This document shows, piece after piece, positions 28,675-45,222 of a DNA stretch of 64,000 nucleotides. The position numbers and the translations under genes were made by a program. Numbering within the stretch: the stretch's first letter is position 1; each line of letters starts with the position of its first letter. The stretch spans positions 62,001-126,000 of the forward strand of contig NZ_SOFH01000017.1 in assembly GCF_004402495.1 (NCBI RefSeq), written 5' to 3'. This DNA is from Cryobacterium sp. HLT2-28. GTDB taxonomy: Bacteria; Actinomycetota; Actinomycetes; Actinomycetales; Microbacteriaceae. Below the pieces are notes generated by a model. That model did no database searches, was not told the DNA's origin, and was given only the letters and a program-made list of their open reading frames with translations.

Positions 28675-28690
28675 GGAACGCCTCCGGACT

Positions 28691-28745
28691 TAATGACGAT
28701 TATTACGGCCACTATAGCGGTTAGTGGCTAGCAAAGCGGTCATTA
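28691..28745. promoter_or_regulatory. Nested perfect dyads in the hipBA promoter
   Basis: TAATGAC (28691-28697) pairs with GTCATTA (28739-28745). Inside it, GCCACTA (28708-28714) pairs with TAGTGGC (28722-28728). Both repeats are perfect 7-mers. The block ends 16 bases before the hipB ATG on the minus strand. It is well placed for cooperative autoregulation by HipB or the HipBA complex. Confidence 0.7.
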
Positions 28746-28755
28746 CTAGCGGTAG

Positions 28756-28920
28756 TTCGTGGCGTAATGCTCCTCGGCGACGATGTGCCAGGGCCGCGTT
28801 GAGCTGGAGTTCGGCGTCTTCGGCGCTGAGTTCACCAGTGAGGATTCGCCGGGCGGATTCGAGGGCTTCGACACTCGGGTAGTGGCCCGCGAGCTGCTGA
28901 CCCTCTCGCGTTCGGGGTGG
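28756..28920 (-). pseudogene. Possible small antitoxin-like gene remnant
   Basis: The minus strand gives GQQLAGHYPSVEALESARRIL, then TGELSAEDAELQLNAALAHRRR. This helical pattern recalls VbhA-type or relatives' antitoxin segments (the ARRILTGELSAEDA part). No start codon or ribosome site fits, and the frame runs on into the hipBA operator. It lies between hipBA and the displaced tRNA terminator. A relic is the best reading; it may be a chance frame. Confidence 0.3.
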
Positions 28921-28937
28921 TTCCCGAAAAAAAGAAA

Positions 28938-28973
28938 GACCCCGTGACCGATGGAATTCTGGGTCACAGGGCC
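28938..28973 (-). terminator. Terminator, apparently the displaced tRNA-Met terminator
   Basis: GACCCCGTGACC pairs with GGTCACAGGGCC around a 12-base loop. On the minus strand the stem is followed by a T-rich run (complement of the A-run at 28927-28937). It directly follows the 3' tRNA-Met fragment at 28979-29019. It therefore fits as the original terminator of the tRNA-Met gene now lying 16 kb away. Confidence 0.75.
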
Positions 28974-28978
28974 TTTAT

Positions 28979-29019
28979 GTGTAGCGGGAGCGGGAATTGA
29001 ACCCGCGACACCACGATTA
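28979..29019. repeat. Distal attachment site: 41-bp copy of the tRNA-Met 3' end
   Basis: The 41 bases are identical to 44955-44995 and cover the tRNA-Met 3' half from the anticodon loop to the discriminator plus 3 bases. After base 29019 the two sequences diverge, and no 5' tRNA half is present. From 29020 to 29305 I see no gene. The start of that stretch holds repeated TTCGACC words (29023-29038) that could be recombinase arm sites. Confidence 0.88.
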
Positions 29020-29305
29020 CGTTCGACCCGATTCGACCTGTTGGACCAACAGCGCGAAACCTCGTCAAACCTCGACTGGACTAGAAGTTCCTGGTAAGAG
29101 GTGATCCGATTCTATCCAAATGCTTCTGCCCACTTAGGCCGGTCTCGACGCAATAAACGGTGAATAAAGGTGCGTGCGTCGAGTCCACTTTCAGAGGGCA
29201 CAGTGACCATCGGATCATAGGATCATCGATGGAGCCTTGGCCGCTCACTTCCTGCAAACTTTGACCCGTCTGATCGAGGTCCCCTGGACGATCATCGTGT
29301 GATCG

Positions 29306-30435
29306 TCACTGGGGATAGGTGCGGTGCTCGGACGGCGCGGTCTCGCTCCCCTGCCCGTGCAGAAGCGTGTCTGCGGTGCGGAGGAGGTCGTCGATCAGCG
29401 CACGGGCGCTCCCATACCGGACCAGAGGCGCTCCCTGGCCCGCCCACAGAGACATGAGATCTCCGACTCCGCGGTCTGCGGCCGTGGGACGGAAACGTCC
29501 GGTGAGCCAGTTCTGCACAGGAAACGGTGCGATTCGATCCGAGTCTTCGAGGTCGCGCGTGAGGCGGTTCGGGACCCCCTGGCGAGTCGGCCACTCAACG
29601 CCTTGGTCAGGACCGTGTGGCCGGCGCCCTCGCTGCCAATGGCGGCACGGTGCACGGGTGCGGCCTCGGACTCCTCGGTTGCGAGAAACGCCGTACCGAT
29701 CTGGACCGCGTGGGCACCCAGATTGATCGCCGCCGCCACGCCTCGGCCGTCGGCGATCCCGCCGGCAGCAATGACCGGAACAGAAACGGCGTCCGCAACC
29801 TGGGGCACGAGAGCGAAGGTGCCAACGAGTGAGTCTTCGGGTTTCCGAAGAAAGGACACGCGGTGACCACCAGCTTCCATACCAGTAGCGACGATGGCGT
29901 CCACGCCGGCACTATCGAGAGCAATCGCCTCATCGACGGTCGTGGCCGTGCCAACTGTGAGGATGCACAGCCCCCGCGCGGCGTCGAGGACCTGCGCCGA
30001 CGGGATACCGAAGACAAAACTCAGCACCGCCGGCCGCGCTTCGAGCGCCGCGGCAAGCTGTTCGTCGAAGGGGGGCAGGTAGGCGGCTGGACGCAGCGGG
30101 AACTCCACCTCGAGTTCGTCAAAGTATGGTCGCAACACGTCGAGGTAGTGGCCAAAAGTTTTCTCATCCGGACGGGTCTCGTCGCTTTCCTCGTGCGGTA
30201 GCCAGAGATTGAGCGCGAAGGGTTTCGACGTCGCACGGGCCAGGTCCCGCGCCGTCGTGGTGATTCGGTCGTAGTCGTAGCCATACAGCCCGTAGGACCC
30301 AAGGCCCCCCGCTTCGCTAACCGCGGCGGTGAGCTTAACGGAAGAAAGTCCGCCAAAAGGGCCGAGCACGATCGGCATCTCAATACCGAACAATCGGGTG
30401 GCTGGAGTGTCGCGCCAGGAACTGTCGGGATTCAT
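29306..30435 (-). pseudogene. Nitronate monooxygenase gene with a single frameshift
   Basis: The first 282 residues or so form an NMO/2-nitropropane dioxygenase TIM barrel: ATRLFGIEMPIVLGPFGG, GVDAIVATGMEAGGHRVSFL, VIAAGGIADGRGVAAAINLGAHAVQIGTAFL with the FMN phosphate loop. After SGRLAR the frame goes wrong. The expected continuation (GVPNRLTRDLEDSDRIAPFP, then VQNWLTGRFRP and LWAGQGAPLVRYGSARALID) is in another frame down to a stop at 29306. One missing G in the C-run at 29575-29579 explains it. This is a real mutation or a homopolymer error. If intact it would oxidise nitronates using FMN. Confidence 0.85.
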
Positions 30436-30525
30436 GAGTTCGCTTTCGTCGTATGTCGCGTTCGGAAGTGACTATTTCATGATCGTCTCTGAAGGCCTAC
30501 GATCTCGAATACTGGGAGGTTCTTG

Positions 30526-30675
30526 ATGGCTGGGCAACGCAATCCGGGCGAGATCGTAGCTCGCGGTGAACCCGTCTGCTGGCTTGAACGAGTGTGCCCG
30601 GAATGCGGCGCGCTGGTCGAGGCGGACCTACCGGCATTGTGCTGGCGCTGCGGCGTCGAGGTCCAACCCCCCTGA
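30526..30675 (+). CDS. 49-residue zinc-ribbon protein, copy 1
   Basis: The gene from ATG 30526 to TGA 30673-30675 follows a strong GGGAGGT site 6 bases upstream. It encodes a protein with PVCWLERVCPECGALVEADL, then PALCWRCGVEV. Two Cys pairs (CPEC and CWRC), 15 residues apart, form a compact zinc ribbon, with an additional Cys-Trp before them. A close paralogue lies at 44428-44571 at the other end of the island. It is divergent from the nitronate monooxygenase gene. No family name is recognised. Function unknown: zinc ribbons of this size act in protein or nucleic-acid contacts. Confidence 0.75.
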   Translation: MAGQRNPGEIVARGEPVCWLERVCPECGALVEADLPALCWRCGVEVQPP

Positions 30676-30839
30676 ATCCACCCTCGGCCAGCCTGTGAGG
30701 ATATCCGGACACTCGGGTTCTGACCCTGGTCAGGCCTGTCTGGCAACCTTGGCTCACCGCACCTGTGAGCTGCAAGGGCACTGGCTTGGCGCGCCGACAC
30801 CATTGAGCACCGACCGTGGCCAGTGGGACATCGATGATG

Positions 30840-31211
30840 TCAGGTGCCAGGGTCATTGGCGAGGTATTCGGCCAGAATCCGCGCATGGTTTATCTGCGGG
30901 TCTTTCGCGCCGTAGACGAGGGTGATGGTCGTCGCGCTGCGCGTCCCGAGTGCGCGCAACTCGGCGATGGCACGGACGGACTCAGGGGCGCCGTCAAGTT
31001 CGGCGCGGTACCGAGTGGCGAACTCCTCGAGGCGTTCCGAATCATGATTCCACCACATGCGCAGTCCTGGCGAGGGGGCCACGTCCTTGAGCCACGCATC
31101 GAGGTGAGCACGCTCTTTCGTTATCCCGCGCGGCCACAGACGGTCGACCAACACCCGGTAGCCGTCGTGGTCGGACACTTCGTCATAGACGCGCTTGATC
31201 CCTATGGTCAT
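30840..31211 (-). CDS. DUF488 family protein
   Basis: This 123-residue protein shows the DUF488 core: [66 protein letters not shown] and [22 protein letters not shown]. The family is widespread and its biochemical role is unknown. Its ATG overlaps the stop of the cytochrome oxidase gene (TCA/CAT overlap at 31208-31211), so the two are translationally coupled. From 30676 to 30839 I see no gene. Confidence 0.88.
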
Positions 31212-33064
31212 GAGAGCACTGAGGGCGTCGGACCCGTGACCCCTGGCACTGCGGCGGAAGCGACGCCGGGGAAGACTGCCTGATTCCAGGACCGGCTTGC
31301 GTTTCGACTCATCTCGTTCTCCCTTCTAGAGACTGCGTCATAGGTGGGCGCATCTATCGCGTCCTTACCTGGACCGATTCCGACGGTCATGGCCACCTCT
31401 GGGTGGTTCAGGTCGAACGCGGGCCGTTCGGAGCGGATGCGCGGGATCGAGGTGAAGTTGTGCCGCGGCGGCGGGCAGGACGTCGCCCACTCGAGCGAGG
31501 CGCCGAAGCCCCACGGGTCGTTCACGGTGACCAGCGGAGCCTTCCGCGCCGTGATGTACACGTTCAGGAAGAACGGGATCATCGAGACGGCGAGGATCAT
31601 CGCGCCGATCGTCGACAGCTGGTTCATCCAGGTGAACCCGTCTTCGGGCGAGTACGACGCGTACCGGCGGGGCATCCCGACGACGCCGAGCCAGTGCTGC
31701 ACGAGGAAGGTGGTGTGGAAGCCGATGAAGAGGAGCCAGAAGTGCCACTTGCCCAGGCTCTCGTTGAGCATCTTGCCGGTCCACTTGGGCCACCAGAAGT
31801 AGAAGCCACTGAACATGGCGAAGACGACGGTGCCGAAGATAACGTAGTGGAAGTGCGCCACGACGAAGTAGGTGTCGGAGACGTGGAAGTCCAGCGGCGG
31901 CGACGCGAGGATGACACCGGTCAGCCCACCGAAGGTGAACGTGACGAGGAACCCGAGGGCCCAGAGCATCGGAGTCTCGAAGGTCAGCGACCCGCGCCAC
32001 ATGGTGCCGATCCAGTTGAAGATCTTCACCCCGGTCGGTACCGCGATCAGCATGGTCATCAGGGAGAAGAACGGCAGCAGAACGGAACCGGTGACGTACA
32101 TGTGGTGCGCCCAGACCGCGACGGACAGTGCCGCGATGGAGATGGTCGCGTAGATCAGGGTCTTGTAACCGAAGATCGGCTTGCGGCTGAAGACCGGGAA
32201 CACCTCGGACACGATGCCGAAGAACGGCAGCGCGATGATGTACACCTCGGGGTGGCCGAAGAACCAGAACAGGTGCTGCCACAAAATGGCGCCGCCGTTG
32301 GCCGGGTCATAAATATGGGAAAGGAAGATCCGGTCGGATGCGGCGGCGAGGAGCGCGGCGGCCAGCACCGGGAAGGCCATCAGCACGAGGATGGAGGTGA
32401 CCATCGTGTTCCAGGTGAAGATCGGCATCCGGAACATGGTCATGCCCGGCGCGCGCATGGTGATGATCGTGGTGATGAAGTTCACGGCGCCGAGAATGGT
32501 GCCGAACCCGGACAGGCCAAGGCCCACCATCCACAAGTTGCCGCCGACCCCGGGCGAGAAGGTCGTGCTCGCCAGCGGTTGGTAGGCGAACCAGCCGAAG
32601 GATGCCGCTCCCTGCGGCGTGAGGAACCCGCCCACTGCGATGAGGCTGCCGAAGAAGAACGCCCAGAAGGAGAACGCGTTGAGCCGTGGGAACGCCACAT
32701 CGGGCGCGCCGATCTGGAGCGGCATCAGGGAGTTCGCGAATCCGAAGAACAACGGCGTCGCGAACATCAGCAGCATGATCGTGCCGTGCATGGTGAAGAG
32801 CTGGTTGTACTGCTCTTTCGTCTGCACGACCTGCAGGCCGGGCTCGAACAGCTGGGCCCGGATCACCAGGGCCATCACGCCGGCGAGGCAGAAGTAGACG
32901 AAGGAGGTGATCAGGTACATGTACCCGATGACCTTGTGGTCGGTGGAGGTGATCCACCGCACCAGGACGTTGCCCTTCTGGTCTGAAGACGGCGGGCCCG
33001 GGTGCGGGATACTCGCGGGTTCCGTCACCGTGGCCGATCTCAGATCTTGAATCCGCTCGGTCAT
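31208..33064 (-). CDS. ctaD: Cytochrome c oxidase subunit I (orphan, island-borne)
   Basis: The 618-residue product is a haem-copper oxidase subunit I with 12 membrane helices. Metal ligands are visible: the low-spin haem His in [12 protein letters not shown], CuB and proton channel [15 protein letters not shown] (His-Pro-Glu-Val-Tyr), AHHMYVTG, and [10 protein letters not shown] with the haem ligands. It would reduce oxygen and pump protons. No subunit II, III or haem assembly gene is nearby, so it must use subunits encoded elsewhere or be non-functional. The C-terminal 50 residues after [11 protein letters not shown] are atypical. Start at ATG 33064; an in-frame GTG 15 bases upstream is possible. 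DUF488 overlaps its end. Confidence 0.93.
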
Positions 33065-33406
33065 CTTCTTGCACCCCACTCACCTGTGATAGACAGCCGA
33101 TCGAAGAGAGCGCGGGTGAGCCGTCGACAGCCGTACACGCCCTCGACCTGGCTCGTATGGTGCAAGAATTTCTCCACGCTTCTCCCTCCCGACGGCACCT
33201 TGCGGCTCCGCATCGGCTGTGGGATGCGACGCACACTCCCGACGACTGGGACCAGGTGCACTACATTGTGAGGATATAGCTCATTTTTAAAGCTGGCAAT
33301 GGTTGTGACTCCGCGACCGTTGCGGCCGCACTCAGTGGGTCAGGACGCCTGCGCCCCGCAGGAACGAAGCCTCAATGGAACAGGTTCAGACCCAAACAGG
33401 GATCGG
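33065..33406. other. Intergenic region upstream of ctaD
   Basis: This 342-bp stretch lies between ctaD and the end of ribA, both read leftwards. It should hold the ctaD promoter and the end of the ribA transcript. A TA-rich patch (TTTTTAAAG at about 33283-33291) stands out from the GC-rich surroundings. No gene or strong hairpin is recognised. Confidence 0.4.
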
Positions 33407-34006
33407 TCACGCAGGGGTCGTCGCACCTAGCAGGTGTCCCATTCGTGCCTGCTTGGTCGACAGGTAAGCGGTGTTGAACGGACTTTCTCCGACGACGAGC
33501 GGCACGCGCTCCACGACGATGCCGCCCCGAGCCAATTGGTGAAGCTTGTCAGGGGTATTCGTGATCAACTGCACCGAGTGAATGCCAAGTTCGTCCAAAA
33601 TCGCCACAGCGGCTGAGTAGTCGCGTTCATCGGCAGGGAGTCCGAGCGCGAGGTTGGAATCCAACGTGTCCAAACCAGACTCCTGAAGTCGATATGCCTT
33701 GAGTTTGTTGATGAGACCGATACCGCGCCCCTCGTGGCCGCGCATGTAGATGACGACCCCGCCGCATCGAGCGATCATGTCGAGCGCCGCATCGAGTTGC
33801 GGGCCACACTCACACTTCAGCGACGAAAATGCCTCACCGGTGAGACACTCGGAATGAACGCGGACGAGCCCGCCGTCACCGAGGAGACCCGAGACGATAG
33901 CGAGGTGTTCCGCGCCGGTGACAAGATCCCGATATCCCCGAAACTGAAAGTGCCCATATTTTGTGGGCACTCGGGTTTCGACCTCGAAGACCACCCGCGC
34001 GTTCAC
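33407..34006 (-). CDS. ribA: GTP cyclohydrolase II (stand-alone)
   Basis: The 199-residue enzyme opens the imidazole ring of GTP to start riboflavin synthesis. Zinc ligands Cys54, Cys65 and Cys67 are in [20 protein letters not shown]. The [19 protein letters not shown] segment holds the catalytic Arg and substrate contacts, and [10 protein letters not shown] and LITNTPDKL follow. It lacks the DHBP synthase domain normally fused to it in actinobacteria, so it is probably a second copy. Its ATG overlaps the transaldolase stop codon. The whole tal-ribA-oxidoreductase set reads as one operon. Confidence 0.93.
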
Positions 34007-35133
34007 CGCGCAGCCCGAAGCGCTGCATCGACAGTGTCAGAAAGCTGCCTCCACGAGGCGATGAATTTGTCGACTCCTTCGCGTTCCAGTGTCGCGGTGG
34101 CGTCATCGTAGGAGATACCGAGCGCGGTGATCGCGTCCATAACCGCCTGCGCAGACCGATAGGTGCCGGCAATGGAATTGCCCCGAATATTGCCATGGTC
34201 GAACACTGCCGCGAGTGTCTTTTCCGGCATCGTGTTGACTATTCCGGGCGCGACAAGGTCGACCACGTAGGTCGTGTCAGGTAACGAGGGGTCCTTGACC
34301 CCAGTGGACGCCCACAGCGGCCGTTGAACGTGTGCGCCATCGGCAAGTAGCTCTCTGGCACGGTCGGTTTCGAACTCGTGCTGGAAGATCTGATAGGCGA
34401 GCCGCGCGTTCGCGATACCCGATTTCCCTTTCACAGTCTGCGCCGCGTCGGTGCCGATGGCGGTGAGGAGCTTGTCGAATTCGGTGTCGACGCGGGAGAC
34501 AAAGAATGACGCCACGGAATGGATGCTCCGCAGATCGATGCCTGCGGCGCGCGCGCTCTCCAACCCGCTGAGGTAGGCGAAGATGACTTCCCGATAACGG
34601 ACGAGGCTGAAGATCAGGGTGACATTGACGCTAATCCCGAGCGCGGTCGCCGTGGTGATTGCTTCGAGACCCTCGACTGTGGCAGGGATCTTGATGTAGA
34701 CGTTCGGCCGATCGATTTTCGTCCTGAGCTTTTTGGCCTCGTCAACCGTGCCCGCCGCGTCGTGGGCGACGTTCGGACTTACCTCGATCGAGACCCATCC
34801 GTCGATACCGTCGGTGCTGTCGAGAATGGGGCGCAGGATATCGCACGCCGCGGCAACATCGTCGGTGGTGAGTTCGCATACGGCCTCGGCCAAGGTGGTG
34901 CCGGCTGCGGCCAGGTGAGATATTTGCGCGTCGTACGCGTCGCCGGTGGATAGTGCCGCCGCGAAGATGCTGGGGTTCGTGGTGATGCCGACGACATGGC
35001 GTTCAGCGATGAGCATCCGGAGCCCCCCAGAAAGTATCCGTTCTCTTGAGAGGTCGTCCAGCCAGATGCTGACCCCTTCCTTGGAGAGCGCATCAGTGGG
35101 CGAGCTCGATGGGGTGTCTCGTGTCGCATTCAT
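34003..35133 (-). CDS. tal: Transaldolase
   Basis: The 376-residue product moves a dihydroxyacetone unit between sugar phosphates in the pentose phosphate pathway. [12 protein letters not shown] and [11 protein letters not shown] are the N-terminal signatures. Lys148 in [11 protein letters not shown] is the Schiff-base residue. The length fits the actinobacterial class. A usual housekeeping copy would lie with tkt and zwf, so this is likely an accessory copy. It overlaps ribA by ATGA and lies 2 bases from the oxidoreductase stop. A TTG at 35139 is an alternative start. Confidence 0.92.
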
Positions 35134-35135
35134 GT

Positions 35136-36365
35136 TCAAACCGCGTCCAACGGGATTTCAGTGTTTTCGAGATCCTGAGCTTCCACGTGCTTGCCGCGGC
35201 GAATGAGGCCCTGCAGGGCGTCGTTCACATCCCAGACGTTCACGTTCATTCCAGCAACTACTCGACCGGAAGCTAGCCAGAACGCGATGAACTTGCGTGC
35301 ACGTCGGTCTCCTCGAAAGACGACCTGGGCCCCACGGGTGAGCGGGCCGAACCCCGAGTACTCCATTCCCAGATCGAATTGGTCAGTATAGAAGTACGGA
35401 ATGTCCTCGTACGAGACGTCAGCGCCGAGCATCGCGCGGGCGGCCGTGCGGCCACCGTTCAACGCGTTTGCCCAGTGCTCGCTGCGCAGGCGTATGTCGG
35501 CCAGCGGGTGATATGCGTTCGCAATATCGCCAGCGGCGAAGACGTCCGGATTGCTGGTCCGAAGCGAGGCATCGACGATCACTCCATTGTCGACATCGAG
35601 TCCTGCGCCGACGGCCAGGCCGATGTTCGGAGTCGCGCCGACACCGACAAGGACAAGGTCTGCCGGAACGACTTCTCCGCCGGCTAGCATCACCGCACTC
35701 ACTCGCCCATCTGAGCCCACAATGCTGTCCACCACAACGGAGAGCCGGAGCTTCACCCCGTTCTCCACATGCAGATCGGCGAACATCTGGCCGAGCTCGT
35801 CACCGAGCGCATTCGCCAACGGGACCGGATCGCGTTCGAGGATTGTCACCTCGTTGCCCAGCGACCGTGCGGTCGCCGCGACTTCCATGCCGATCCAGCC
35901 AGACCCGATCAGAACGAGCCTCTTTCCGCCGTCGGCCAGCTGGGCACGCAGCGCGTCTGAGTCCTCAAGCGTGCGAAGGTACCGCACACCGTCGAGCTCC
36001 ACCCCCGGAATCGTCAGCGTCCGCGGCGACGAACCGGTAGCAAGAAGGAGCTTGTCGTACCTGACGACCTCGCCGTTTGCGAGCCCGAGCTCGCGACGAG
36101 CAAAATCAAGCTTCTCCGCCGTCGTGTTGGAAGAGAATTCGATCTCGTTCTCCGAGTACCACGTGTCCGGGTTGACGAACACCGACGCGCGGTCCGACGC
36201 ACCGCTTAGATAGTCCTTCGAAAGCGGCGGACGGATATATGGTCTGTGTGTCTCTGCTCCGATCAGACGCACTCGGCCCGTGAACCCTTCCTCCCGCAAC
36301 GTCCTGGCCGCTGAAGCGCCCGCCAGGCCGGCACCGACGATGACAAAGTTTCTTGAGCCGGACAT
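35136..36365 (-). CDS. FAD-dependent oxidoreductase, ferredoxin reductase type
   Basis: The 409-residue protein has two Rossmann folds, [22 protein letters not shown] for FAD and [22 protein letters not shown] for NAD(P)[17 protein letters not shown] motif near the C-terminus binds the flavin. It resembles putidaredoxin/rhodocoxin-type reductases that feed electrons to ferredoxins. No ferredoxin or P450 gene is adjacent. ATG 36365 is chosen because the FAD motif begins 7 residues in and an AAAAGAG site precedes it. It is first in an operon with tal and ribA. Confidence 0.9.
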
Positions 36366-36417
36366 TGTCGCTCTTTTCGATTTGGGTGTCGAGCGTTCTC
36401 CGCTCTCGGATATCACG

Positions 36418-36447
36418 ACTGTAGAAGCATCCACATTCTTTTGTCAA
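36418..36447 (-). promoter_or_regulatory. Promoter of the oxidoreductase-tal-ribA operon
   Basis: On the minus strand TTGACA (36442-36447, perfect consensus) and TACAGT (36418-36423) are separated by 18 bases. It lies about 53 bases upstream of the ATG at 36365. The divergent regulator starts 31 bases to the right. Confidence 0.7.
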
Positions 36448-36477
36448 GATTAACTATTTTAGAGATAGGCTGACCAC

Positions 36478-37125
36478 ATGAATCCACAAGCCCGGCTCGA
36501 TAACATCGCTGCAGTGGCCTCGATCAACGACCCCGTTCGCAGATCACTCTTCGATTTCGCAGTACGCAGTGAAACGGCGATCGGGCGAGACGAAGCCGCC
36601 ACAGCATTGGGCATCCCGCGCGGAACGGTTGCATTCCACTTGGACCGCCTGGTCGAAAGCGGTCTGCTCACAACTGAGTTCCAGCGCCGAACAGGCCGGA
36701 CCGGTCCCGGCGCGGGACGACCCTCAAAGCTCTACCGACCCACCAGGGCCGAAGTTGTCGTCTCCCTACCGGAGCGACACTACGATCTCGCTGCAGACCT
36801 GCTCAGCTCGGCGATCGAGGAATCGGACCGAACCTCCGAACCCATCCGCCAGGCACTCATTCGGGTATCGACCGCCCGTGGCCGCGCACTGCGAATCAGC
36901 GCAGGGTCGTTCGCCGCGATGCTCTCGGACACAGGCTACGAGCCCCACGACAGGGTTCACGGGGGCAAGGTGCTCACCAACTGTCCCTTTCACCGGCTTG
37001 CCTTGAGCCACACGGAAATAATCTGTCAAGCGAATCTGGCGCTACTGCAAGGTGCGGCGGAAGGCGAAGAGGAAATCCGTTTCGACCCAGGTGAAGGACG
37101 ATGCTGCGTGCAGATCGGCGCATAG
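36478..37125 (+). CDS. HTH regulator of the COG2345/SufR-like group
   Basis: The 215-residue protein has an N-terminal winged helix (about 15-60: DPVRRSLFDFAVRSETAIGRDEAATALGIPRGTVAFHLDRLVESGLL) with the GPGAGRPSKLYRP wing. A C-terminal sensor domain ends NCPFHRLALSHTEIICQANLALL...GRCCVQIGA. That Cys/His pattern is typical of COG2345 regulators, including the Fe-S sensor SufR, so a redox or metal signal is likely. It is divergent from the oxidoreductase operon. A TAGGCT -10-like box 6 bases before the ATG suggests a leaderless mRNA. Confidence 0.87.
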   Translation: MNPQARLDNIAAVASINDPVRRSLFDFAVRSETAIGRDEAATALGIPRGTVAFHLDRLVESGLLTTEFQRRTGRTGPGAGRPSKLYRPTRAEVVVSLPERHYDLAADLLSSAIEESDRTSEPIRQALIRVSTARGRALRISAGSFAAMLSDTGYEPHDRVHGGKVLTNCPFHRLALSHTEIICQANLALLQGAAEGEEEIRFDPGEGRCCVQIGA

Positions 37126-37512
37126 AAGAGAAAATGAAGCTCTGACGAAGATTGCCGGCAAGCAGACGTCGCCCAGGCGCTCGGCACCGCGGCGATCTAC
37201 GCCGGTGCGCGAAACCTCGCCTCCATGCTCAACGCCGCTGAGACCCACACGGGCTCCCACGTGGCCAGCGAAAACCGGCCCGTGACCCCAAGCCACCAGC
37301 GGGTGAGCTGCGATCAGCGCCCCACCCGTCCCCGAGGCTACGGGCAAACTGGAAGAGAGCGTATGCGGCCTGTCTCGTCGACGACGACGCCTGCGCACAC
37401 TGCCTTGGACGCAAGGACCTAGGAATTTGCACGTCGGCCATGGATGACCAGGTGAAAAGGATAGGCCGCCGCCGACGGCACATGGACTGCACAGCCTTAC
37501 GGATCCACAGAC
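37126..37512. other. Gene-poor stretch inside the island
   Basis: No complete gene is recognised here. Short open frames on both strands look like chance or decayed sequence. One plus-strand stretch (ADVAQALGTAAIYAGARNLA at about 37164-37224) looks protein-like but has no start and matches nothing I recognise. Confidence 0.4.
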
Positions 37513-37650
37513 TCAACGAATGGCGGTTAATCCGCCATCGACGACCAAAGCTGCTCCTGTGATGTAGGAGGCGGCGGCGCAGAGGAACACTATCATCGGG
37601 GCGATTTCTGTCGGGCTGGCTTGCCGTTTCAGCGGCACAGGGTCAAGTGG
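37513..37650 (-). pseudogene. C-terminal fragment of a short-chain dehydrogenase
   Basis: The minus strand ends LKRQASPTEIAPMIVFLCAA, then ASYITGAALVVDGGLTAIR and a TGA at 37513-37515. This is the standard SDR C-terminus (E-I-A...FL...A-S-Y-I-T-G...V-D-G-G). Nothing upstream continues the fold, so the N-terminal three quarters are missing. Confidence 0.75.
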
Positions 37651-37747
37651 ACGGCCCTATTTCCACGACAAGGGCATTGAATATTACCGCTACGTTTCAC
37701 CCTCGTCTTCTCGCTGAATCTGGTCTAGCGAGTCAGAGCGTTAGGCT

Positions 37748-38863
37748 GTGAAAATGGCGTCTGAGGGTGGCACGCGCGTGGGTTCCGCTGTCCGTGGGAT
37801 GCCTCCGGGCTACTTCGCGCTGGTCATGGCCACGGGAATCATTTCGGTTGGGATGCACCTGATCGGCGTCCGAACGCTCAGTGTCGCCCTCCTGATCGTG
37901 TGTGCCACGGCCTACCTGGTACTCATCGTGCTGACCGGATGGCGGTTCGTCGCCTATCGGGTCGCCTTCCTCGAAGACTTGCACGATCCGCACCGGGGCT
38001 TTCAGTTCTTCACTTTCGTGGCCGGCACCAACGTCTTGGCCGCGCGCCTGGCCATCGAGGGCTGGTTCGCGGCGGCCGCGACGCTTCTGGGGGCTTCCGG
38101 CCTCACCTGGCTACTACTCGGCTATGTAGTCCCCTGGCTCGCTGTCTTGGGCCATACGGCGCGGCCCGTACTCGGCGCTGCGAACGGCACCTGGTTCATC
38201 TGGGTTGTCGCAAGCCAATCGGTCGCCGTCGTGGCAGCCGCCTTGGAGCCCGCATCTGGGGATGCACGGGCGTTGCTCGCGGTCCTTGCCATCCTGTCCT
38301 GGTCTGTGGGCATCTTCCTCTATGGAGCCGTGGGTGTTTTCGTCGCATTGCGACTGGTGCTGTACGAAATCCGCCCGAAGGACATGGACGCGCCGTACTG
38401 GGTATCCATGGGCGCCTGTGCGATCACGGTGTTGGCGGGCGCACGAATCGTCGAGATGGCAGACGCACCGATGGTGAGCGCGACAAGAGGCCTTGTTGGA
38501 GGTGTCTCCGTCATGTTTTGGGCGTTCGCCACCTGGCTTGTCCCCGTGCTCATCGCGGTCGGGTTCTGGCGTCATGTCAAGCGCCGCCTACCCCTCCGTT
38601 ATGGAGCAACACTCTGGAGTATCGCGTTCCCGGTCGGAATGTACGCCGTCGCCGGCATCTATCTCGGCCAGGCCGACAAACTTCCGCTGGTTGGACAGAT
38701 CGGGACCGCCTCACTCTGGGTGGCCCTGGCCGTCTGGGTGACCGTGTTCACCGCAATGGTCCGTCAGCCGCTCAGGGATGGCGGATACCTTCGTGGAGAA
38801 CGTGAGAAGCCGATTACCCCGACGCGCCGGCTTTCGCCGGCGGATGGAGAGAGTGAGGACTGA
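37748..38863 (+). CDS. TDT-family transporter (tellurite-resistance/dicarboxylate transporter)
   Basis: The 371-residue product has about ten membrane helices and opens with GMPPGYFALVMATGIISVG, the hallmark of TDT family proteins (TehA, Mae1, SLAC1). These are channels or carriers for malate, sulfite, chloride or tellurite-related anions. The substrate here is unknown. The start is a GTG at 37748. The following cupin gene begins 4 bases after the stop, so the pair forms an operon. Confidence 0.87.
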   Translation: MKMASEGGTRVGSAVRGMPPGYFALVMATGIISVGMHLIGVRTLSVALLIVCATAYLVLIVLTGWRFVAYRVAFLEDLHDPHRGFQFFTFVAGTNVLAARLAIEGWFAAAATLLGASGLTWLLLGYVVPWLAVLGHTARPVLGAANGTWFIWVVASQSVAVVAAALEPASGDARALLAVLAILSWSVGIFLYGAVGVFVALRLVLYEIRPKDMDAPYWVSMGACAITVLAGARIVEMADAPMVSATRGLVGGVSVMFWAFATWLVPVLIAVGFWRHVKRRLPLRYGATLWSIAFPVGMYAVAGIYLGQADKLPLVGQIGTASLWVALAVWVTVFTAMVRQPLRDGGYLRGEREKPITPTRRLSPADGESED

Positions 38864-38866
38864 ACA

Positions 38867-39199
38867 GTGCAGAAAATCTCGATCGAGGCGCTCGCCCGCC
38901 AACAGCTCAAGGCCGCCACCAACAGCACGAGTGGTCGCGCAGCCGACACGGTCTTCGGGGGTCACGAGAAGATCATGCGTCAAACGGTCATCGCCCTGCT
39001 CGACGGGAGGTCCCTGAGCGAGCATGAGAATCCGGGCGAGGCAACAATTTACGTCCTCAGCGGGCGGGTACAGCTGAGAATGGACGACGTCGTCTGGGAA
39101 GGCCGCACCGGGGATCTCCTGATCGTTCCTGATGCACGCCATAGCCTCGCCGCGATTGAAGATTCCACGGTCCTGATGACCGTCGCCAAAAAGGGCTAG
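38867..39199 (+). CDS. Small cupin protein
   Basis: The 110-residue single-domain cupin has the first motif in LSEHENPGEATIYVLSGRVQL (His, Glu) and the second in GDLLIVPDARHSLAAIEDS (His). The metal ligands of motif 1 are partly replaced, since the usual G(X)5HXH reads SEHEN. It starts with GTG after AGGAC and is coupled to the transporter. Small cupins of this type often accompany anion transporters or act as sensors. Role unknown. Confidence 0.82.
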   Translation: MQKISIEALARQQLKAATNSTSGRAADTVFGGHEKIMRQTVIALLDGRSLSEHENPGEATIYVLSGRVQLRMDDVVWEGRTGDLLIVPDARHSLAAIEDSTVLMTVAKKG

Positions 39200-39247
39200 G
39201 CCATGGCGCTTGGCTGAACCCGGCCGGTGCGGGAGTGAATAGCTGCC

Positions 39248-39436
39248 TCAGCTGCAGCCACTCGTGCTGCCACAGCTTTCGCAGGCGTAGCACGAATCCA
39301 ACGGTCGCATAGCGGTGCCGCAAGACATGCACAGTGGCGCATCCAGGATGAGCCCTGCTGAGCCTCGAGCAGTTCCGCCGAGAAATGTATCGAGTGAGTC
39401 GCCGAGGAGCCAACAGGCCAGTAGTGGCGATCGTCA
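39248..39436 (-). pseudogene. C-terminal fragment of B12-dependent ribonucleotide reductase
   Basis: The frame gives LLGDSLDTFLGG, then DAPLCMSCGTAMRPLDSCYA, then CESCGSTSGCS and a stop at 39248-39250. The DAPLC..CG...CY.CE.CG.TSGCS tail is the Cys-rich C-terminus of class II NrdJ, which re-reduces the active site. A TGA in frame at about 39437 cuts it off upstream. Only about 60 residues of a roughly 1000-residue enzyme remain. Confidence 0.8.
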
Positions 39437-39479
39437 GGAGTGTCCCAGCGAATACGTGGAGCGTTGCGCGGGCAGTCGT

Positions 39480-40031
39480 TCAGTGCCTTTCCAGGCACGA
39501 GCAACAAGAGGATGCCTCGGCTGACTCCAGTACCGAGGGACTCGGGAGGGCAAGTGAGGACCTGCGCCGGGCTCTCCAGGTCCGACGCCATCCAGCACGG
39601 TCGGGACTCGGCGACCCCTGTGGATTGACAGGCGAAACGCCGCGCGCTCCTGCGGCAGGTGCCGCACCGACGTCGGTGAAGTCGGGAACCTGAATTTCGT
39701 GGTCGACGATCGCTCCGTCTGCGATAAAGGCACCTCGGCCGACCTGCGTGTAGCTGCCCAGGCGCGCTTGGTTGCCGACGACCGCATCAGGTCCAACATG
39801 CACGTTGGCTCCAATGAATACTCCCGCGCCGATGATCGCCCGGTGATCGATCCAACTCCCCTGCCCGATCCACGAGCCCGGCCCGACCTGGGCTCCGCTC
39901 TCTACATAGGCTGCGCTCGAGACAAAGGCGCTGGGGTAGACACGAGCACCGGGGGAAACAAGCCCCTTGCCATTCACGTGACGCCGGTATTTCGACACTT
40001 CACCTGGGTTGAGTTCCACTTCCAGACTCAT
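39480..40031 (-). CDS. Hexapeptide-repeat (left-handed beta-helix) protein
   Basis: The 183-residue frame begins MSLEVELNPGEVSKYRRHV. About ten hexapeptide turns follow (GLVSPGARVYPSAFVSSAAY, VESGAQVGPGSWIGQGSWID, AIIGAGVFIGANVHVGPDAV), as in LpxA/LpxD-like acyltransferases. The region after VPDFTDVGAAP (about 60 residues, Arg/Ser-rich) looks unnatural and may be a frameshifted or truncated end abutting the nrdJ relic. An upstream ATG at 40070 is possible. Substrate unknown. It lies downstream of the dehydrogenase operon on the same strand. Confidence 0.6.
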   Translation of the reverse strand: MSLEVELNPGEVSKYRRHVNGKGLVSPGARVYPSAFVSSAAYVESGAQVGPGSWIGQGSWIDHRAIIGAGVFIGANVHVGPDAVVGNQARLGSYTQVGRGAFIADGAIVDHEIQVPDFTDVGAAPAAGARGVSPVNPQGSPSPDRAGWRRTWRARRRSSLALPSPSVLESAEASSCCSCLERH

Positions 40032-40159
40032 TCTTACCAATTTGTAACTCCTCGTTTCGTCTTGCAACATGGCTCGTTCGATCCCGCCCTCATCTCGAGG
40101 ACTCCCGGGAAATCGCTCCGGGACCGACCCGTCATTCGAGTGGCCGGTCCCATCGGCCG

Positions 40160-41464
40160 TCAGGCGATGATTGTCCACGGAGTCTCGATCAGGCGGGTCA
40201 GGGTCTGCAGGAACTGCGCGGCCACGGCGCCGTCGATGATCCGATGGTCCGCCGACAGGGTGTAGCGCATCCTGTGCCGGACGACGATTTCGCCGCCCAC
40301 CACGACCGCTTCGGGGGTGGTGCCGCCGACAGCCAGGATCGCCCCTTCGGGCGGGTTGATGATCGCGGTGAATTGCTCCACGCCGAACATCCCGAGGTTG
40401 CTGATCGTGAAGGTTCCGCCCGACATCTGGGCCGGCGTGAGCTTCTTGGCGTTGGCCAGCATGACCAGGGCCTTGGCCTCCGTGCCGAGCTGGCTGACCG
40501 TCTTCTGGTCCGCGTCCTCGATGACGGGAACAACGAGGCCATTGCCGGAGGCGACTGCCACACCGATGTTGACGCGGTGGTGCACCAGCATCTCGCCGCT
40601 CGGGTCATCGATATAGGACGCATTCACCTCGGGGTGCTCGCGCAGGGCGAGCGCGCTCGCCCGAATCAGCAGGTCGTTGATGCTCACCCTCGGTCGGCCG
40701 GCCAGAACAAGCTGCGCGTTCAGGTCAGTGCGCAACTGCACCAGATTCTCCGCGTCCGCTGCGGCCGTGACGAAGAAGTGCGGGATGCTGCGGGCGCTCT
40801 CGCCCAGCCGTCGTGCGATGATGCGGCGCATATTACTGAGCGGGACGGCCTCGGATGCACGCTTGTCGTCGGCCTCATGCGCGACTGCGGAAGTTTCCGC
40901 AGCGGGCGCAGCGGTCACCGATGTGCTGAGCGCGCCAGGACCGGGACCCGTCGCCTGCGCGAGCAGTTCGTCGGTATCCGCCCGGATGATTCGACCGCCG
41001 GGCCCCGTGCCGCGCACCTGGCTCAGGTCGAGATGGTGCTCCCGTGCGAGTTTGCGCACCAGCGGCGAGGCAAAGAGGCGATCGCTTCCCCCGGAGGCCT
41101 TTTCGGTGGCCGAAGCAGGTGCCGAGTCGGGGCTCGCGGGGGCATCCTCGGTCAACACGACAGGGGCCGTCGCGGCAGAATCGGCCGCGGCGGCGGGCGT
41201 CGCCCCTGGCGCAGGACCTGTGCTCGGCTTGCCGTCGTCGAGCAGTGCGATGGGCACGCCGATGGAGACCAATTTGCCCTCGGGCACAAGATGCTCGGAC
41301 AGAGTGCCGGCCTCGTAGGCTTCATATTCCATCGTGGCCTTGTCGGTCTCGATCTCGACGAGCAGGTCGCCGACCTCGACTCGGTCGCCGGGCTGCTTGT
41401 GCCAGACGGCGATGGCGCCTTCCTCCATCGTGTCGGAGAGGCGGGGCATGGTGATTTCGATCAT
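40160..41464 (-). CDS. Dihydrolipoamide acyltransferase (E2) of a 2-oxo acid dehydrogenase
   Basis: The 434-residue E2 has one lipoyl domain (about 1-78) with Lys42 in EIETDKATMEYEA. A Pro/Ala-rich linker follows. The E1/E3-binding domain is at about 129-168 (RLFASPLVRKLAREHHLDLS, GTGPGGRI). The catalytic domain ends LSADHRIIDGAVAAQFL with the HxxxDG motif. It forms the core that transfers the acyl group to CoA. It overlaps the E1 beta gene by ATGA. No E3 gene is present in the window. Confidence 0.93.
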   Translation of the reverse strand: MIEITMPRLSDTMEEGAIAVWHKQPGDRVEVGDLLVEIETDKATMEYEAYEAGTLSEHLVPEGKLVSIGVPIALLDDGKPSTGPAPGATPAAAADSAATAPVVLTEDAPASPDSAPASATEKASGGSDRLFASPLVRKLAREHHLDLSQVRGTGPGGRIIRADTDELLAQATGPGPGALSTSVTAAPAAETSAVAHEADDKRASEAVPLSNMRRIIARRLGESARSIPHFFVTAAADAENLVQLRTDLNAQLVLAGRPRVSINDLLIRASALALREHPEVNASYIDDPSGEMLVHHRVNIGVAVASGNGLVVPVIEDADQKTVSQLGTEAKALVMLANAKKLTPAQMSGGTFTISNLGMFGVEQFTAIINPPEGAILAVGGTTPEAVVVGGEIVVRHRMRYTLSADHRIIDGAVAAQFLQTLTRLIETPWTIIA

Positions 41465-42477
41465 GATTGTGCACCCATCGGGTAGCGGCGACGACCGACG
41501 GCATCGAGGGTCTGGCGAATGGCGCCGATGACGTCATCGACCGACGGCAGCGCAGCTGTCTCCAGTGGTTTTGAGTAAGGCAGCGGCACTTCGGCCATCG
41601 CGACGCGTCGAACAGGCGCGTCCAGATAGTCGAAGGCGCCGTCGGAGATGGTCGCCGCGATCTCAGCGCCGATTCCGTAGGTCAGCCAATCATCCTCAAG
41701 GATGACGGCGGCATGCGTCTTCTTCACTGACTCCACGACCGTTTCCCGGTCGAGCGGACGCAGGCTGCGCAGGTCGATGACCTCGATGTCCAGGCCGTCC
41801 GATTCCGCGAGCCGTTCCGCAACCTGAGACGCAACATAGGCCATCCGCGAATAGCCGATCAGGGTGATGTCGCTCCCCCGACGGGTGACGGCTGCTTTAC
41901 CGATCTCAGCCGGCACGTCACCGTCGGGCACCTCCCCCTTGTTGTTGTACAAGGACAGATTCTCCAGGAAGAGAACCGGGTCGTTGTCCCGAATCGCCGC
42001 GATCAGAAGCGCCTTGGCGTCGGCGGGTGTGCTGGGCGCCACGACCTTCATCCCGGGCACGAAGGCATAGAAGAGCTCGATGTTCTGCGAGTGAGTCGCA
42101 CCCAGCTGCTGGCCACCGCCACCCGGCGTACGGATGACCAGGGGAACCCTGGCCTGTCCGCCGAACATGCCGTATATTTTGGCAGCGTGGTTCACGATCT
42201 GGTCGAGGGCTAGCAGGGAGAAGTTGATGGTCATGATCTCGACGACGGGGCGGAGACCAAGCATTGCGGCACCGATGGCGGCACCGGTGAAGCCCTCTTC
42301 GGCGATGGAGGTGTCCCTGACACGCTTCTCACCGAATTCGTCGAGCAGTCCGGCGGTGATCTTGTAGGCGCCTTCGAAGAGGCCGATTTCCTCGCCCATC
42401 AAGAACACGTCCGTGTCCCGGTGCATTTCCGAGCGCAGAGTATCGTGCAGCGCCTGTCGATAGGTCATGATGCTCAC
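41461..42477 (-). CDS. 2-oxo acid dehydrogenase E1 beta subunit
   Basis: This 338-residue beta subunit completes the thiamine-diphosphate site with E1 alpha. Typical segments are MGEEIGLFEGAYKITAGLLDEFG (catalytic Glu region), DTSIAEEGFTGAAIGAAMLGLRPVVEIM and VIDLRSLRPLDRETVVESVKKT. The GTG start overlaps the E1 alpha stop. Together with E2 it forms a pyruvate or acetoin dehydrogenase-type complex. The substrate cannot be fixed from sequence. Confidence 0.92.
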   Translation of the reverse strand: MSIMTYRQALHDTLRSEMHRDTDVFLMGEEIGLFEGAYKITAGLLDEFGEKRVRDTSIAEEGFTGAAIGAAMLGLRPVVEIMTINFSLLALDQIVNHAAKIYGMFGGQARVPLVIRTPGGGGQQLGATHSQNIELFYAFVPGMKVVAPSTPADAKALLIAAIRDNDPVLFLENLSLYNNKGEVPDGDVPAEIGKAAVTRRGSDITLIGYSRMAYVASQVAERLAESDGLDIEVIDLRSLRPLDRETVVESVKKTHAAVILEDDWLTYGIGAEIAATISDGAFDYLDAPVRRVAMAEVPLPYSKPLETAALPSVDDVIGAIRQTLDAVGRRRYPMGAQS

Positions 42478-43622
42478 TGGCTGACTCCGTACTCGGGGAT
42501 TGGTGCAGGTTCGAACAGAGGTTGCCCTGGCAACCGATGGGAGTCGTTTGCGACAGGTGTGGCGTAGGTGTAGTCGAAGAGGGTCGACACGTCGGGGAAT
42601 GGACTGTTTTCGGCAAATGCCGCGGCCGCGGCCGCCTGTGCGATTGCGTCCTGGTCGATGGACGCCAATTCCTGCTCGTCGAGCAGTCCGTCCGCGAGGA
42701 GCGTCGCCGCAAAGGCAGGAACCGGGTCTCGCTCTTTCACCTGGATCATCTCTTCGGCTGAACGGTACTTTGCGGGGTCAACGACGGAGTGTCCTCGGAG
42801 CCGCTCGGTCACGACTTCGAGTAGGAACGGCTTGCCGGCACGAGCCATCGCGACCGCCCGTTCGGTCGCCTCGAACACGGCGAGGGGATCGAGACCATCG
42901 ACGCGTTCGGACGCCATCCGGTAGGCGGATGCCCTCTTGTAGAGATCGGGCTCCGCGGAAGACTTCTCGACCGTCGTGGCCATCCCCAGCGCGTTGTTGA
43001 TGACGACGTACACGATTGGCAGATTCCAGAGTGACGCTATGTTCAGGGATTCGTGGAAGGCCCCGATGTTCGTCGTTCCGTCGCCCATCGTGCACAGGAC
43101 GATCTCATCCCCACTGCGATAGTCGATGGCCAGGGCTGCTCCCGTGGCGAGGGGGATCTGACCGCCGACGATGCCGTAACCGCCCAGCATCCGCTTCTCA
43201 AAATCGAACATGTGCATGGACCCACCCCACCCCTTGGACACGCCATCGGCCCGGCCATACAGCTCCGCCATCACCCGATTGGGATGGATGCCGCGAGTTA
43301 TCGCGTAACCATGCTCGCGATAGTTGGTGAAAAGGTAGTCGCTCGGGCGAAGCGCCGCCATGAGTCCGACGACTGCGGCCTCCTCGCCAAGATTCAGGTG
43401 GCAGTATCCGCCGATCATCGCCTGAGTGTAGGCCCGCGCCGCTCGCTCCTCGAACCGGCGAATGAGCATCATCTGGCGGTAGAAACCGACCCAGCGTTTG
43501 CCGGTTCCCTCTTCGGCCAGTGGCGAGGCTGGGGCACGTTCCACCGACCGCGCGGGCGGTATGGGCACCTGCGGCACCCGGGAGGTCTTGGGGGCCGCTG
43601 TTGTTCGCGGACGCGTGGACAT
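42474..43622 (-). CDS. 2-oxo acid dehydrogenase E1 alpha subunit (pyruvate/acetoin type)
   Basis: The 382-residue subunit binds thiamine diphosphate through GDGTTNIGAFHESLNIASLW...VVINN. QMMLIRRFEERAARAY, GGYCHLNLGEEAAVVG and RLRGHSVVDPAKYRSAEE (phosphorylation-loop region) are PDH/acetoin dehydrogenase E1 alpha markers. ATG 43622 is chosen over an upstream in-frame start because GGGAG lies 8 bases before it. It is first in the E1alpha-E1beta-E2 operon. A divergent TetR gene and a palindrome in between suggest control. Confidence 0.92.
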   Translation of the reverse strand: MSTRPRTTAAPKTSRVPQVPIPPARSVERAPASPLAEEGTGKRWVGFYRQMMLIRRFEERAARAYTQAMIGGYCHLNLGEEAAVVGLMAALRPSDYLFTNYREHGYAITRGIHPNRVMAELYGRADGVSKGWGGSMHMFDFEKRMLGGYGIVGGQIPLATGAALAIDYRSGDEIVLCTMGDGTTNIGAFHESLNIASLWNLPIVYVVINNALGMATTVEKSSAEPDLYKRASAYRMASERVDGLDPLAVFEATERAVAMARAGKPFLLEVVTERLRGHSVVDPAKYRSAEEMIQVKERDPVPAFAATLLADGLLDEQELASIDQDAIAQAAAAAAFAENSPFPDVSTLFDYTYATPVANDSHRLPGQPLFEPAPIPEYGVSQ

Positions 43623-43681
43623 AGGAGCACTCCCTGCTCGGCCTTCGTAAGGTCGGGGATCGACGAGTCGTAGCAATCTTT

Positions 43682-43703
43682 AATGATACGAATTGGTTTC
43701 ATT
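43682..43703. promoter_or_regulatory. Palindromic operator between tetR and the dehydrogenase operon
   Basis: The halves AATGATACGAA and TTGGTTTCATT are inverted repeats matching at 9 of 11 positions around an AATT centre. The site is AT-rich in GC-rich DNA. It lies 60 bases from the E1 alpha ATG and 57 bases from the tetR GTG, suiting repression of both by the TetR protein. Confidence 0.65.
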
Positions 43704-43759
43704 CTACATCGAAGAGTACGTTTGAGGTAAGAATTCTTCCCACATCCGAAGGGCTCACC

Positions 43760-44404
43760 GTGGACCCAGCGACCACAGCGCACACCGTTCGCAGACGCGG
43801 CCGTCCCACAGAGGCGGGGCGCATCGAACGTCGAGGGCAGATCCTGGATGCCGCCCTGCCGATCTTTCTCGGCTACGGCTTCGGCAACGCGACGGTCGAC
43901 CGGATAGCGGTCGCGGCCCGGGTCACCAAACGCACCATCTACAGTTACTTCGGCAACAAGGACGGTCTGTTCACCGAGATGCAACGACGCCTCGCCGCGA
44001 ACGTCAGCGGCGAGTCAATGGTTCCAGAGACCCTGGAATCACTGGCCACGCGCATCGTGTATGGCTTGCACTCAGCCCAGATGATTGGGCTGCACCGGCT
44101 CGTGATCGCCGAATCGCTACGGTTTCCGGAACTCGCTCGAAACCTCCACGACAACGGCGACATGCAGCACATCAGGCGCCTGGCGGACCAACTTCGAGCC
44201 GAGCACGGCCCGGCTGTTGCAACCCGTGCGGAATCGCTCTACGCACTGCTTCTGGGTGAGGACTATCGGCGGCGGCTACTCGGGCTGCTGGGTCCGGTGA
44301 CGGCTGCCGAGGCCACGATCCACGCACAGTCGGCACTAGCGCTCATCTGTCTGACGAACAGCGCGGACGTCGAGCACCCCGCAATCACCGAGAACGATCA
44401 GTGA
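43760..44404 (+). CDS. TetR-family regulator of the dehydrogenase operon
   Basis: The 214-residue product has a TetR HTH (about 22-70: RRGQILDAALPIFLGYGFGNATVDRIAVAARVTKRTIYSYFGNKDGL) and a C-terminal domain of the AcrR_C type. It is divergent from the E1alpha-E1beta-E2 operon, with a 22-bp palindrome in the 137-bp gap. That operon and its own gene are the likely targets. The GTG start is preceded by GAAGGG. The zinc-ribbon gene copy 2 starts 23 bases after its stop. Confidence 0.87.
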   Translation: MDPATTAHTVRRRGRPTEAGRIERRGQILDAALPIFLGYGFGNATVDRIAVAARVTKRTIYSYFGNKDGLFTEMQRRLAANVSGESMVPETLESLATRIVYGLHSAQMIGLHRLVIAESLRFPELARNLHDNGDMQHIRRLADQLRAEHGPAVATRAESLYALLLGEDYRRRLLGLLGPVTAAEATIHAQSALALICLTNSADVEHPAITENDQ

Positions 44405-44427
44405 CCTCGACTATCGGGAGGATCGTG

Positions 44428-44571
44428 ATGGACGGCAACCCGCGTGACGTTCCCGCCCGTGGTGACCCTGTCTGCTGGCTCGAGCGAGTGTGTCCGGAAT
44501 GCGGTGCGCTGGTCGAGGCTGACCTGCCGGCAATGTGCTGGCGCTGCGGCGTTGGGGTCCAGCCTTCCTGA
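44428..44571 (+). CDS. 47-residue zinc-ribbon protein, copy 2
   Basis: The gene follows CGGGAGG about 6 bases upstream and encodes PVCWLERVCPECGALVEADL, then PAMCWRCGVGVQPS. It is nearly identical to copy 1 (30526-30675) from the CWLERVCPECG segment on; the N-terminal 12 residues differ more. Codon third positions vary between copies (GAACCC/GACCCT, CTTGAA/CTCGAG), so the protein sequence is under selection. Its place right after tetR suggests it is co-expressed with that regulator. Function unknown. Confidence 0.75.
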   Translation: MDGNPRDVPARGDPVCWLERVCPECGALVEADLPAMCWRCGVGVQPS

Positions 44572-44579
44572 AACCGAGC

Positions 44580-44786
44580 TCCTGGGCATCACCGTCAGGT
44601 CTGCTCGACGGCCACGGCCATCGGAGACGCGATAGCGGATCTCCCGGCCACTCGGATGCCGGATGGGCCGCGGCCGTCGGTGCGCAGGTCGTAGATGGCC
44701 AGCACGTGCACACCGAGATACTCGGCGAGCTCACTCGTCGTGAGGACTGGCTCGAGGCCGAGCCCAGAGAGGATTTCGGCATTCAT
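44580..44786 (-). pseudogene. Excisionase-like HTH gene with a frameshift
   Basis: From ATG 44786 the frame reads LEPVLTTSELAEYLGVHVLA, then IYDLRTDGRGPSGIRV. This is the MerR/Xis-type HTH of actinobacterial integrative elements. The next expected residues, GREIRYRVSD, are present but in the other frame. A single-base frameshift at about 44646-44650 therefore breaks the gene. The end of the domain is also missing. Its place, about 170 bases from the tRNA attachment site, is where xis-int genes normally lie. Confidence 0.72.
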
Positions 44787-44954
44787 ATACCGTAGGTGTC
44801 CGAGGACACCCCAACTCACTCGAACTGGGTCGTGCACCCTCTCCGCGAACGCCCAAAACAGACTGGCGCCGCGGAATATACGGTGAACAAACGTCGAATG
44901 CATCAAGTCTTGCCCTTCCAATGAGGACAAGAAACCCAGGTCAAACTATTTCTC

Positions 44955-44995
44955 GTGTAGCGGGAGCGGGAATTGAACCCGCGACACCACGATTA
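44955..44995. repeat. Proximal attachment site: 41-bp repeat inside tRNA-Met
   Basis: It is identical to 28979-29019 and covers the tRNA 3' end plus 3 flanking bases. Identity stops at the anticodon loop, the usual crossover zone of tyrosine recombinases. The tRNA 5' half is unique to this side. Confidence 0.88.
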
Positions 44996-45031
44996 TGAGC
45001 CGTGTGCTCTAACCAACTGAGCTACCCCGCC
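44958..45031 (-). tRNA. tRNA-Met (CAT anticodon)
   Basis: A 74-nt cloverleaf with acceptor GGCGGGG/TCCCGCT, D-arm GCTCAGTTGGTTAGAGC and anticodon loop CTCATAA carrying CAT. The T-arm is GCGGGTTCAATTCCCGC and the discriminator is A. The first pair is G-U, not the C-A mismatch of initiators, so it is elongator tRNA-Met; tRNA-Ile2 with a modified C is an alternative. CCA is not encoded. It is the integration target of the island to its left. Confidence 0.93.
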
Positions 45032-45064
45032 ACGGCCTGTCGGCTGCAAGAGCTTCCAAGCCTG

Positions 45065-45136
<72 letters not shown>

Positions 45137-45222
45137 AGAACTTCCAACGGGCAGAAGCTGAGCCTTTGTTTTTCGGCAACCGGTAAAGATTATCACCAAC
45201 TTTGCCTGCCCGTTGACCGCGC

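Follow-up and report, generated by a model that had tools for sequence, protein, structure and literature searches.

A broken, putative excisionase gene adjoins a tRNA-Met gene

The window, i.e., the whole stretch of 64,000 nucleotides of Cryobacterium sp. HLT2-28 DNA analysed here (part of contig C21), contains an intact tRNA-Met gene (cat), found with ARAGORN at 44957..45031 on the minus strand. On the same strand lies an open reading frame at 44595..44786, whose ATG occupies 44786-44784 and whose stop codon is located at 44595. This frame matches a family of predicted excisionases (xis) to about 44650 (TTSELAEYLGV...YDLRTDGRGPSGIRV, ending ...SGIRV) and then runs out of the family frame to the stop. 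The initial annotation had described an Xis-type helix-turn-helix (HTH) whose conserved ending, GREIRYRVSD, is present one base out of frame, and the latter observation proved correct. The wing part of xis, GREIRYRVSD, is encoded at 44620..44649 on the minus strand, in a frame different from that of the HTH part, and alignment to the intact paralogue on contig C22 of the same genome places one missing base between 44649 and 44650, outside any homopolymer run. In the 135 nt preceding the break, the relic and the paralogue differ at 21 positions, distributed 3/4/14 over the three codon positions, which is consistent with a gene that had been conserved before it was broken.

The search of excisionase families that the initial annotation had suggested gave a divided answer. 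The relic, of which the first two residues were left out as the scan began at 44780, scored below the cut-offs of both HTH_17 (24.7 bits, cut-off 27) and TIGR01764 (21.7, cut-off 28.8), whereas the C22 excisionase was clearly above the former (46.0 bits vs 27) and just below the latter (28.5 vs 28.8). The second wing strand is not in frame in the relic itself. The encoded protein is predicted to keep the HTH helices, and since the frameshift removes the second wing strand and the last helix, it should be inactive.

Two other readings of the open frame were also considered. A longer xis starting from TTG (44930) was ruled out, as the upstream frame contains stops in many relatives. A programmed frameshift was dropped: most relatives have an open xis (45 of 52), and in Cryobacterium sp. 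MP_M3 (L056:5001-5240) the gene carries a different frameshift near the same place, next to an open int.

The remainder of xis and the whole integrase gene are missing

Homology to xis ends at a junction of about 10 bases, 44611..44620. On the xis side it starts at 44619 (in comparison with the relative G040:C6) or at 44621 (with the C22 copy), while on the other side the sequence matches another genome (G039:C109) up to 44610. A few matches from genus genomes reach 44616, and in the other 56 genomes of the genus no match spans the junction. On its far side, neither the remainder of xis nor any part of the integrase gene (int) is present. These alignments indicate that int and the C-terminus of xis were lost in an event of their own, a deletion or rearrangement at about 44611-44620. 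Since both are absent past the junction, the gene would count as a relic even without the one-base shift. An error could account for the shift, but hardly for the absence of int.

That no integrase follows had been noted from the open reading frames, and database searches agree with it. A whole-genome search with PF00589 (Pfam) gave 6 matches, none of them on C21, and a search of the genome with a family integrase as the query found no open integrase of the family, the matches being limited to the three fragments of the broken C22 gene and to a distant protein on C13. Three open integrases of other kinds are encoded in this genome, on C8, C18 and C13.

The other neighbor of the junction is a reading frame for a zinc-ribbon-like mini-protein (44401..44571, plus strand), for which all zinc-ribbon matches are weak and below cut-off. 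This mini-gene is duplicated in the island described below, at 44455-44572 and 30559-30676 (86% identity, same orientation), so that one of the copies abuts the xis junction. The matches of the second copy's reading frame (30526-30675) are likewise below cut-off.

Related sequences occur at two other places in the genome

When the segment 44560-44960 was compared with its own genome, three places were found, i.e., the segment itself, a region of C22 (81% identity over 324 bases, E 3.6e-85) and a region of C18 (82 bases). The likeness between the relic and the C22 paralogue, judged by this alignment, is not due to chance. The C22 copy encodes an intact predicted excisionase (...GIRVGREIHYRVSDVRQWLDGL...) beside another tRNA-Met gene, and in its integrase gene (L004:6706-7890) two frameshifts leave three separate pieces; no other family integrase was found in the genome. 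The C18 sequence (L005:7742-7832) is a solitary left end of the family adjoining tRNA-Arg, at which own-genome searches detected neither a family xis nor a family int. The right-end motif described below was not found at the C22 and C18 copies.

The xis gene belongs to a family located between tRNA genes and int

The C22 excisionase was used as the query of a scan of 84,980 species, each represented by one genome. Out of 340 pattern matches, 52 encode a relative, nearly all in Microbacteriaceae and mostly in Cryobacterium and Agromyces. The common layout is the 3' end of a tRNA gene, about 170 nt, xis and int. A tRNA gene lies upstream of xis in 39 of the 52 relatives (28 Met, 9 Arg and 2 Thr), and the distance from its end to xis codon 2 is 168-174 nt in 36 of these 39, compared with 173 nt in the window. 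Both genes are open in 29 of the 52 relatives, xis in 45 and int, in one piece, in 31; these counts are approximate, as the calls were made by a script that uses a short pattern and may misjudge L039, where the start was taken from an offset. No locus was cut before the expected end of int, with at least 1,586 bases available after the xis start. In the 31 relatives with an open int, xis lies between int and either a tRNA gene (28) or a tRNA 3' fragment (3). Thus, the initial annotation was right to place the HTH gene where xis-int cassettes usually sit: in the relatives, xis is found between the tRNA and a tyrosine integrase gene.

Matches to integrases in plasmid and phage collections (39 and 394 records) were all less than 60% identical. 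The best plasmid match was that of Microbacterium sp. No. 7 (41.6%, with a 49% identical xis beside it) and the best one in the phage collection was Gordonia phage DumpsterDude (37.8%); both differ from the island family by an identity below 50% and by their plasmid or phage context. A viral origin was not supported, as 20 stretches in viral contigs matched a pattern and none of them encoded a relative. Among the papers listed in the literature searches, which touched Cryobacterium only slightly, none described this family.

The predicted proteins resemble RdfS-type excisionases and tyrosine integrases

A profile built from 23 excisionases of the family had RdfS (8dgl) as its best match in the PDB (E 5.8e-5). 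Modelled with a mean pLDDT of 82.9, the intact paralogue has the winged-HTH fold of solved excisionases, and its best Foldseek match was again 8dgl (E 6.3e-4). Superposition on 8dgl aligned 63 residues with an rmsd of 4.1 and a Z of 8.2, a score close to the best Z of 7-8 that the tool gives as usual when a model has no clear match. BldC (6ama) and MerR-type structures match the excisionase model as well. The initial annotation had asked whether a non-excisionase family would fit the HTH better; RdfS remained the best match, and with the HTH_17 score of the paralogue the Xis-type assignment was upheld.

A role of the HTH protein as a BldC/AlpA/MerR-like regulator of island transcription, instead of as an excisionase, is unlikely in our view. 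Such a role would agree with the BldC and MerR-type matches, and some excisionases double as regulators, e.g., Apl of phage 186 (PMC7498355). However, an excisionase, RdfS, gives the best match in both sequence and structure, and in 31 of 31 relatives with an open int the gene has int on one side and a tRNA gene, or a 3' fragment of one, on the other.

The family integrases scored 73.6-78.7 bits with PF00589 in three relatives (cut-off 27.1), and in 26 integrases the R, H-x-x-R, H and Y columns, which we take to be the catalytic ones, are invariant. The best Foldseek match of the integrase model was lambda Int (1z1g, E 5.8e-11), with a loose superposition (TM 0.45, rmsd 16.2). The N-terminal part of the model (17-65) consists of three strands and a helix, and no Pfam arm-binding domain was matched in the three family integrases.

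The relic lies at the end of a 16-kb island with retained attachment sites

The 3' part of the tRNA-Met gene plus 2 bp (44955..44995) is repeated exactly, 41/41 bases and in direct orientation, at 28979..29019. We refer to these repeats as the attL core and the attR core, respectively, the latter being a displaced copy of the tRNA 3' part. They delimit an island at 28979..44995, with a repeat-to-repeat unit of 15,976 bp. The 3' core end of the tRNA occurs at only two places in the genome when up to 3 mismatches are allowed. In relatives, the sequence that flanks attR on the outside (28929-28978) directly adjoins tRNA-Met. Of nine distinct places examined (L080-L088), eight show the empty site, in which tRNA-Thr, tRNA-Met and this outer flank are contiguous. 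At the ninth, L080, the core and the flank are present without the tRNA. The GC content is 0.61-0.66 in the nine 2-kb bins covering 28001-46000 and 0.64-0.74 elsewhere in the window, ranges that touch each other. Just outside attR, at 27134-28674, lie genes for a HipA-like protein and an XRE-type HTH protein, likely a toxin-antitoxin pair.

The cargo appears to be metabolic and regulatory. Among the 17 island reading frames scanned, 15 had metabolic, regulatory or zinc-ribbon matches, 2 had none at all, and no replication, transfer or phage structural gene was detected. Next to the zinc-ribbon-like frame a TetR-family regulator is encoded (43760..44404, plus strand; PF00440, PF14246), followed, as assigned by domain matches, by a three-gene 2-oxoacid dehydrogenase cluster (E1 alpha, E1 beta and E2; 40160..43676, minus strand) and by an HTH_20 regulator, a SLAC1/TDT-type transporter and a cupin protein (36478..39199, plus strand). 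Within 29395..36434, on the minus strand, domain matches indicate a nitronate monooxygenase-like protein, a DUF488 protein, cytochrome oxidase subunit I, GTP cyclohydrolase II, transaldolase and a ferredoxin-reductase-like protein. The oxidase subunit I gene, located at 31208-33079, is of the aa3 type. Adjoining the right end, at 29211-29297, there is an inverted fragment resembling (82%) the 3' end of the E2 gene (40165-40251). In comparison with the relative G040, 6,021 bp of the cargo show 93-94% identity and no indel.

Both ends of the island share a conserved 19-bp motif

Conserved blocks were recognized at both ends of the island, at 44865..44943 on the left (consensus of 50 left ends, with five loci left out) and at 29130..29205 on the right (consensus of 21 right ends). 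Each contains a tandem motif, at 44875-44893 and 29152-29170, respectively, in the same orientation, and the 19-bp core common to left and right ends is AATAAACG-N-TGAATAAACG. In the 3.7-Mb genome this motif has four matches at up to 3 mismatches, i.e., both ends of the island and the left ends on C22 and C18. In 57 genomes of the genus we counted 85 matches, distributed over 33 genomes, at up to 2 mismatches, and none with a reversed control; 24 of the 57 had no motif at 2 mismatches and 20 had no left-end match. The motif precedes xis in 42 of the 52 relatives at up to 4 mismatches (reversed control, 1 of 52), always 88-91 nt before xis codon 2, and is missing at this threshold in the other 10. 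A left end is also found close to 7 of 20 right-end stretches, as in tandem arrays; five of these seven were chosen because the pair of ends had already been seen close together, thus 7/20 is not a rate.

The motif is likely an integrase-arm or excisionase site, and as such a candidate for binding by one of the two proteins. Its presence at both ends speaks for arms. It may equally serve the excisionase or belong to the xis promoter; for excisionase sites, direct repeats spaced by one helical turn are described as typical (PMC7498355). As a marker, the motif offers a cheap means of finding such islands genome-wide.

The island is probably stranded by decay of its recombination module

We conclude, with a probability of about 0.88, that the locus is the decayed recombination module of a genomic island integrated into tRNA-Met, with a predicted RdfS-like xis, and that the island would be mobile only with a supplied integrase. 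In the intact form of such an element, a lambda-like tyrosine integrase would bind sites in both element ends and exchange strands within the 41-bp tRNA core, and a winged-HTH excisionase resembling RdfS, encoded between attL and int, would bind the att region and drive excision. In the island studied here, xis presumably lost one base and a rearrangement removed the xis C-terminus together with all of int. The island would then be fixed unless a family integrase comes from elsewhere.

The initial annotation had called the element trapped through loss of its recombination genes. This holds in so far as no open family integrase was found in the genome; however, the att sites and the end motifs are kept, and the term, as far as the sequence tells, applies to this genome alone. 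Here a different explanation has to be weighed, namely that the island is still mobile, as a non-autonomous passenger moved in trans by the integrase of a related element. We consider it possible, though doubtful. Both att cores are identical and both end motifs are retained, left and right family ends lie side by side in other genomes, and it is common for relatives to have both genes open (29 of 52). However, this genome yielded no open integrase of the family, and since the tRNA 3' core occurs just twice in it (at up to 3 mismatches), there is no second island in this tRNA gene. A much less probable explanation is an assembly error, with xis truly intact and int nearby but mis-assembled: the assembly is a draft of 32 contigs, the shift is of one base only and the C22 integrase shows two frameshifts too, but no more than 30 bp separate the shift from the end of xis homology, where a sequence known from G039:C109 up to 44610 adjoins, no family int was found on C21, the 6,021 bp of cargo are free of indels relative to G040, and the gap lies outside a homopolymer run.

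With decay of the recombination module as the preferred reading, what began as one frameshifted peptide is now an island whose limits are known exactly and whose att sites are mapped, and which can be compared with an empty site in relatives, an intact paralogue and 52 relatives. This makes it possible to track and test gene flow in these actinobacteria, which belong mostly to Cryobacterium and Agromyces. The 23 of 52 members that do not have both genes open show islands that lose mobility yet keep their ends.

The island resembles cis-mobilizable elements

Cis-mobilizable elements (CIMEs) are defined (PMC5704250, PMC3146451) as elements without integration and transfer genes that keep attL and attR. 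Because attL, attR and the end motifs are retained, the island is like an element of this type, and in its sequence features it fits one that has lost its recombination genes while retaining the attachment sites. CIMEs share with it the lost recombination genes, the kept attL and attR, intact relatives with conserved ends, and elements lying side by side in sister genomes. They differ in that the 17 island reading frames scanned here show no sign of transfer genes and that the island is not in tandem with a helper in this genome. It is thus a further example of an already known kind of stranded element.

For the recombination proteins, the closest comparison is RdfS/IntS of ICEMlSymR7A, a Mesorhizobium element that depends on RdfS for its excision (PMC11963761). 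RdfS is the nearest solved relative of the family excisionase, and a tyrosine integrase is common to both systems; an attP of 283 bp containing five arm motifs may be listed among the likenesses (PMC11963761). In contrast, rdfS is apparently not beside intS there (PMC11963761), whereas here xis lies between att and int, and the hosts and cargo are other ones. Bacteriophage lambda is a more distant model. Its Int is the best Foldseek match, with 376 alignment columns for the 395-residue integrase model, and the structures matched by the excisionase model include that of its Xis (2ief, Z 5.3). However, the Int superposition is loose, the family integrases have no match to the Pfam arm domain, and the island has a tRNA target, metabolic cargo and no phage genes seen among its scanned frames.

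Elements inserted in tRNA-Arg genes keep the same end motif as those in tRNA-Met genes of two kinds. In a tree of the left ends, from which 8 of 54 rows are omitted (L013, L022, L026, L033, L035, L054, L055 and L057), the end from the window groups with tRNA-Arg elements with a support of 90/87. Since this support is below the starred level, target switching, i.e., a tRNA-Arg-like end in tRNA-Met, stays a hint. If true, one arm code may serve several cores, and relatives could swap targets and cargo.
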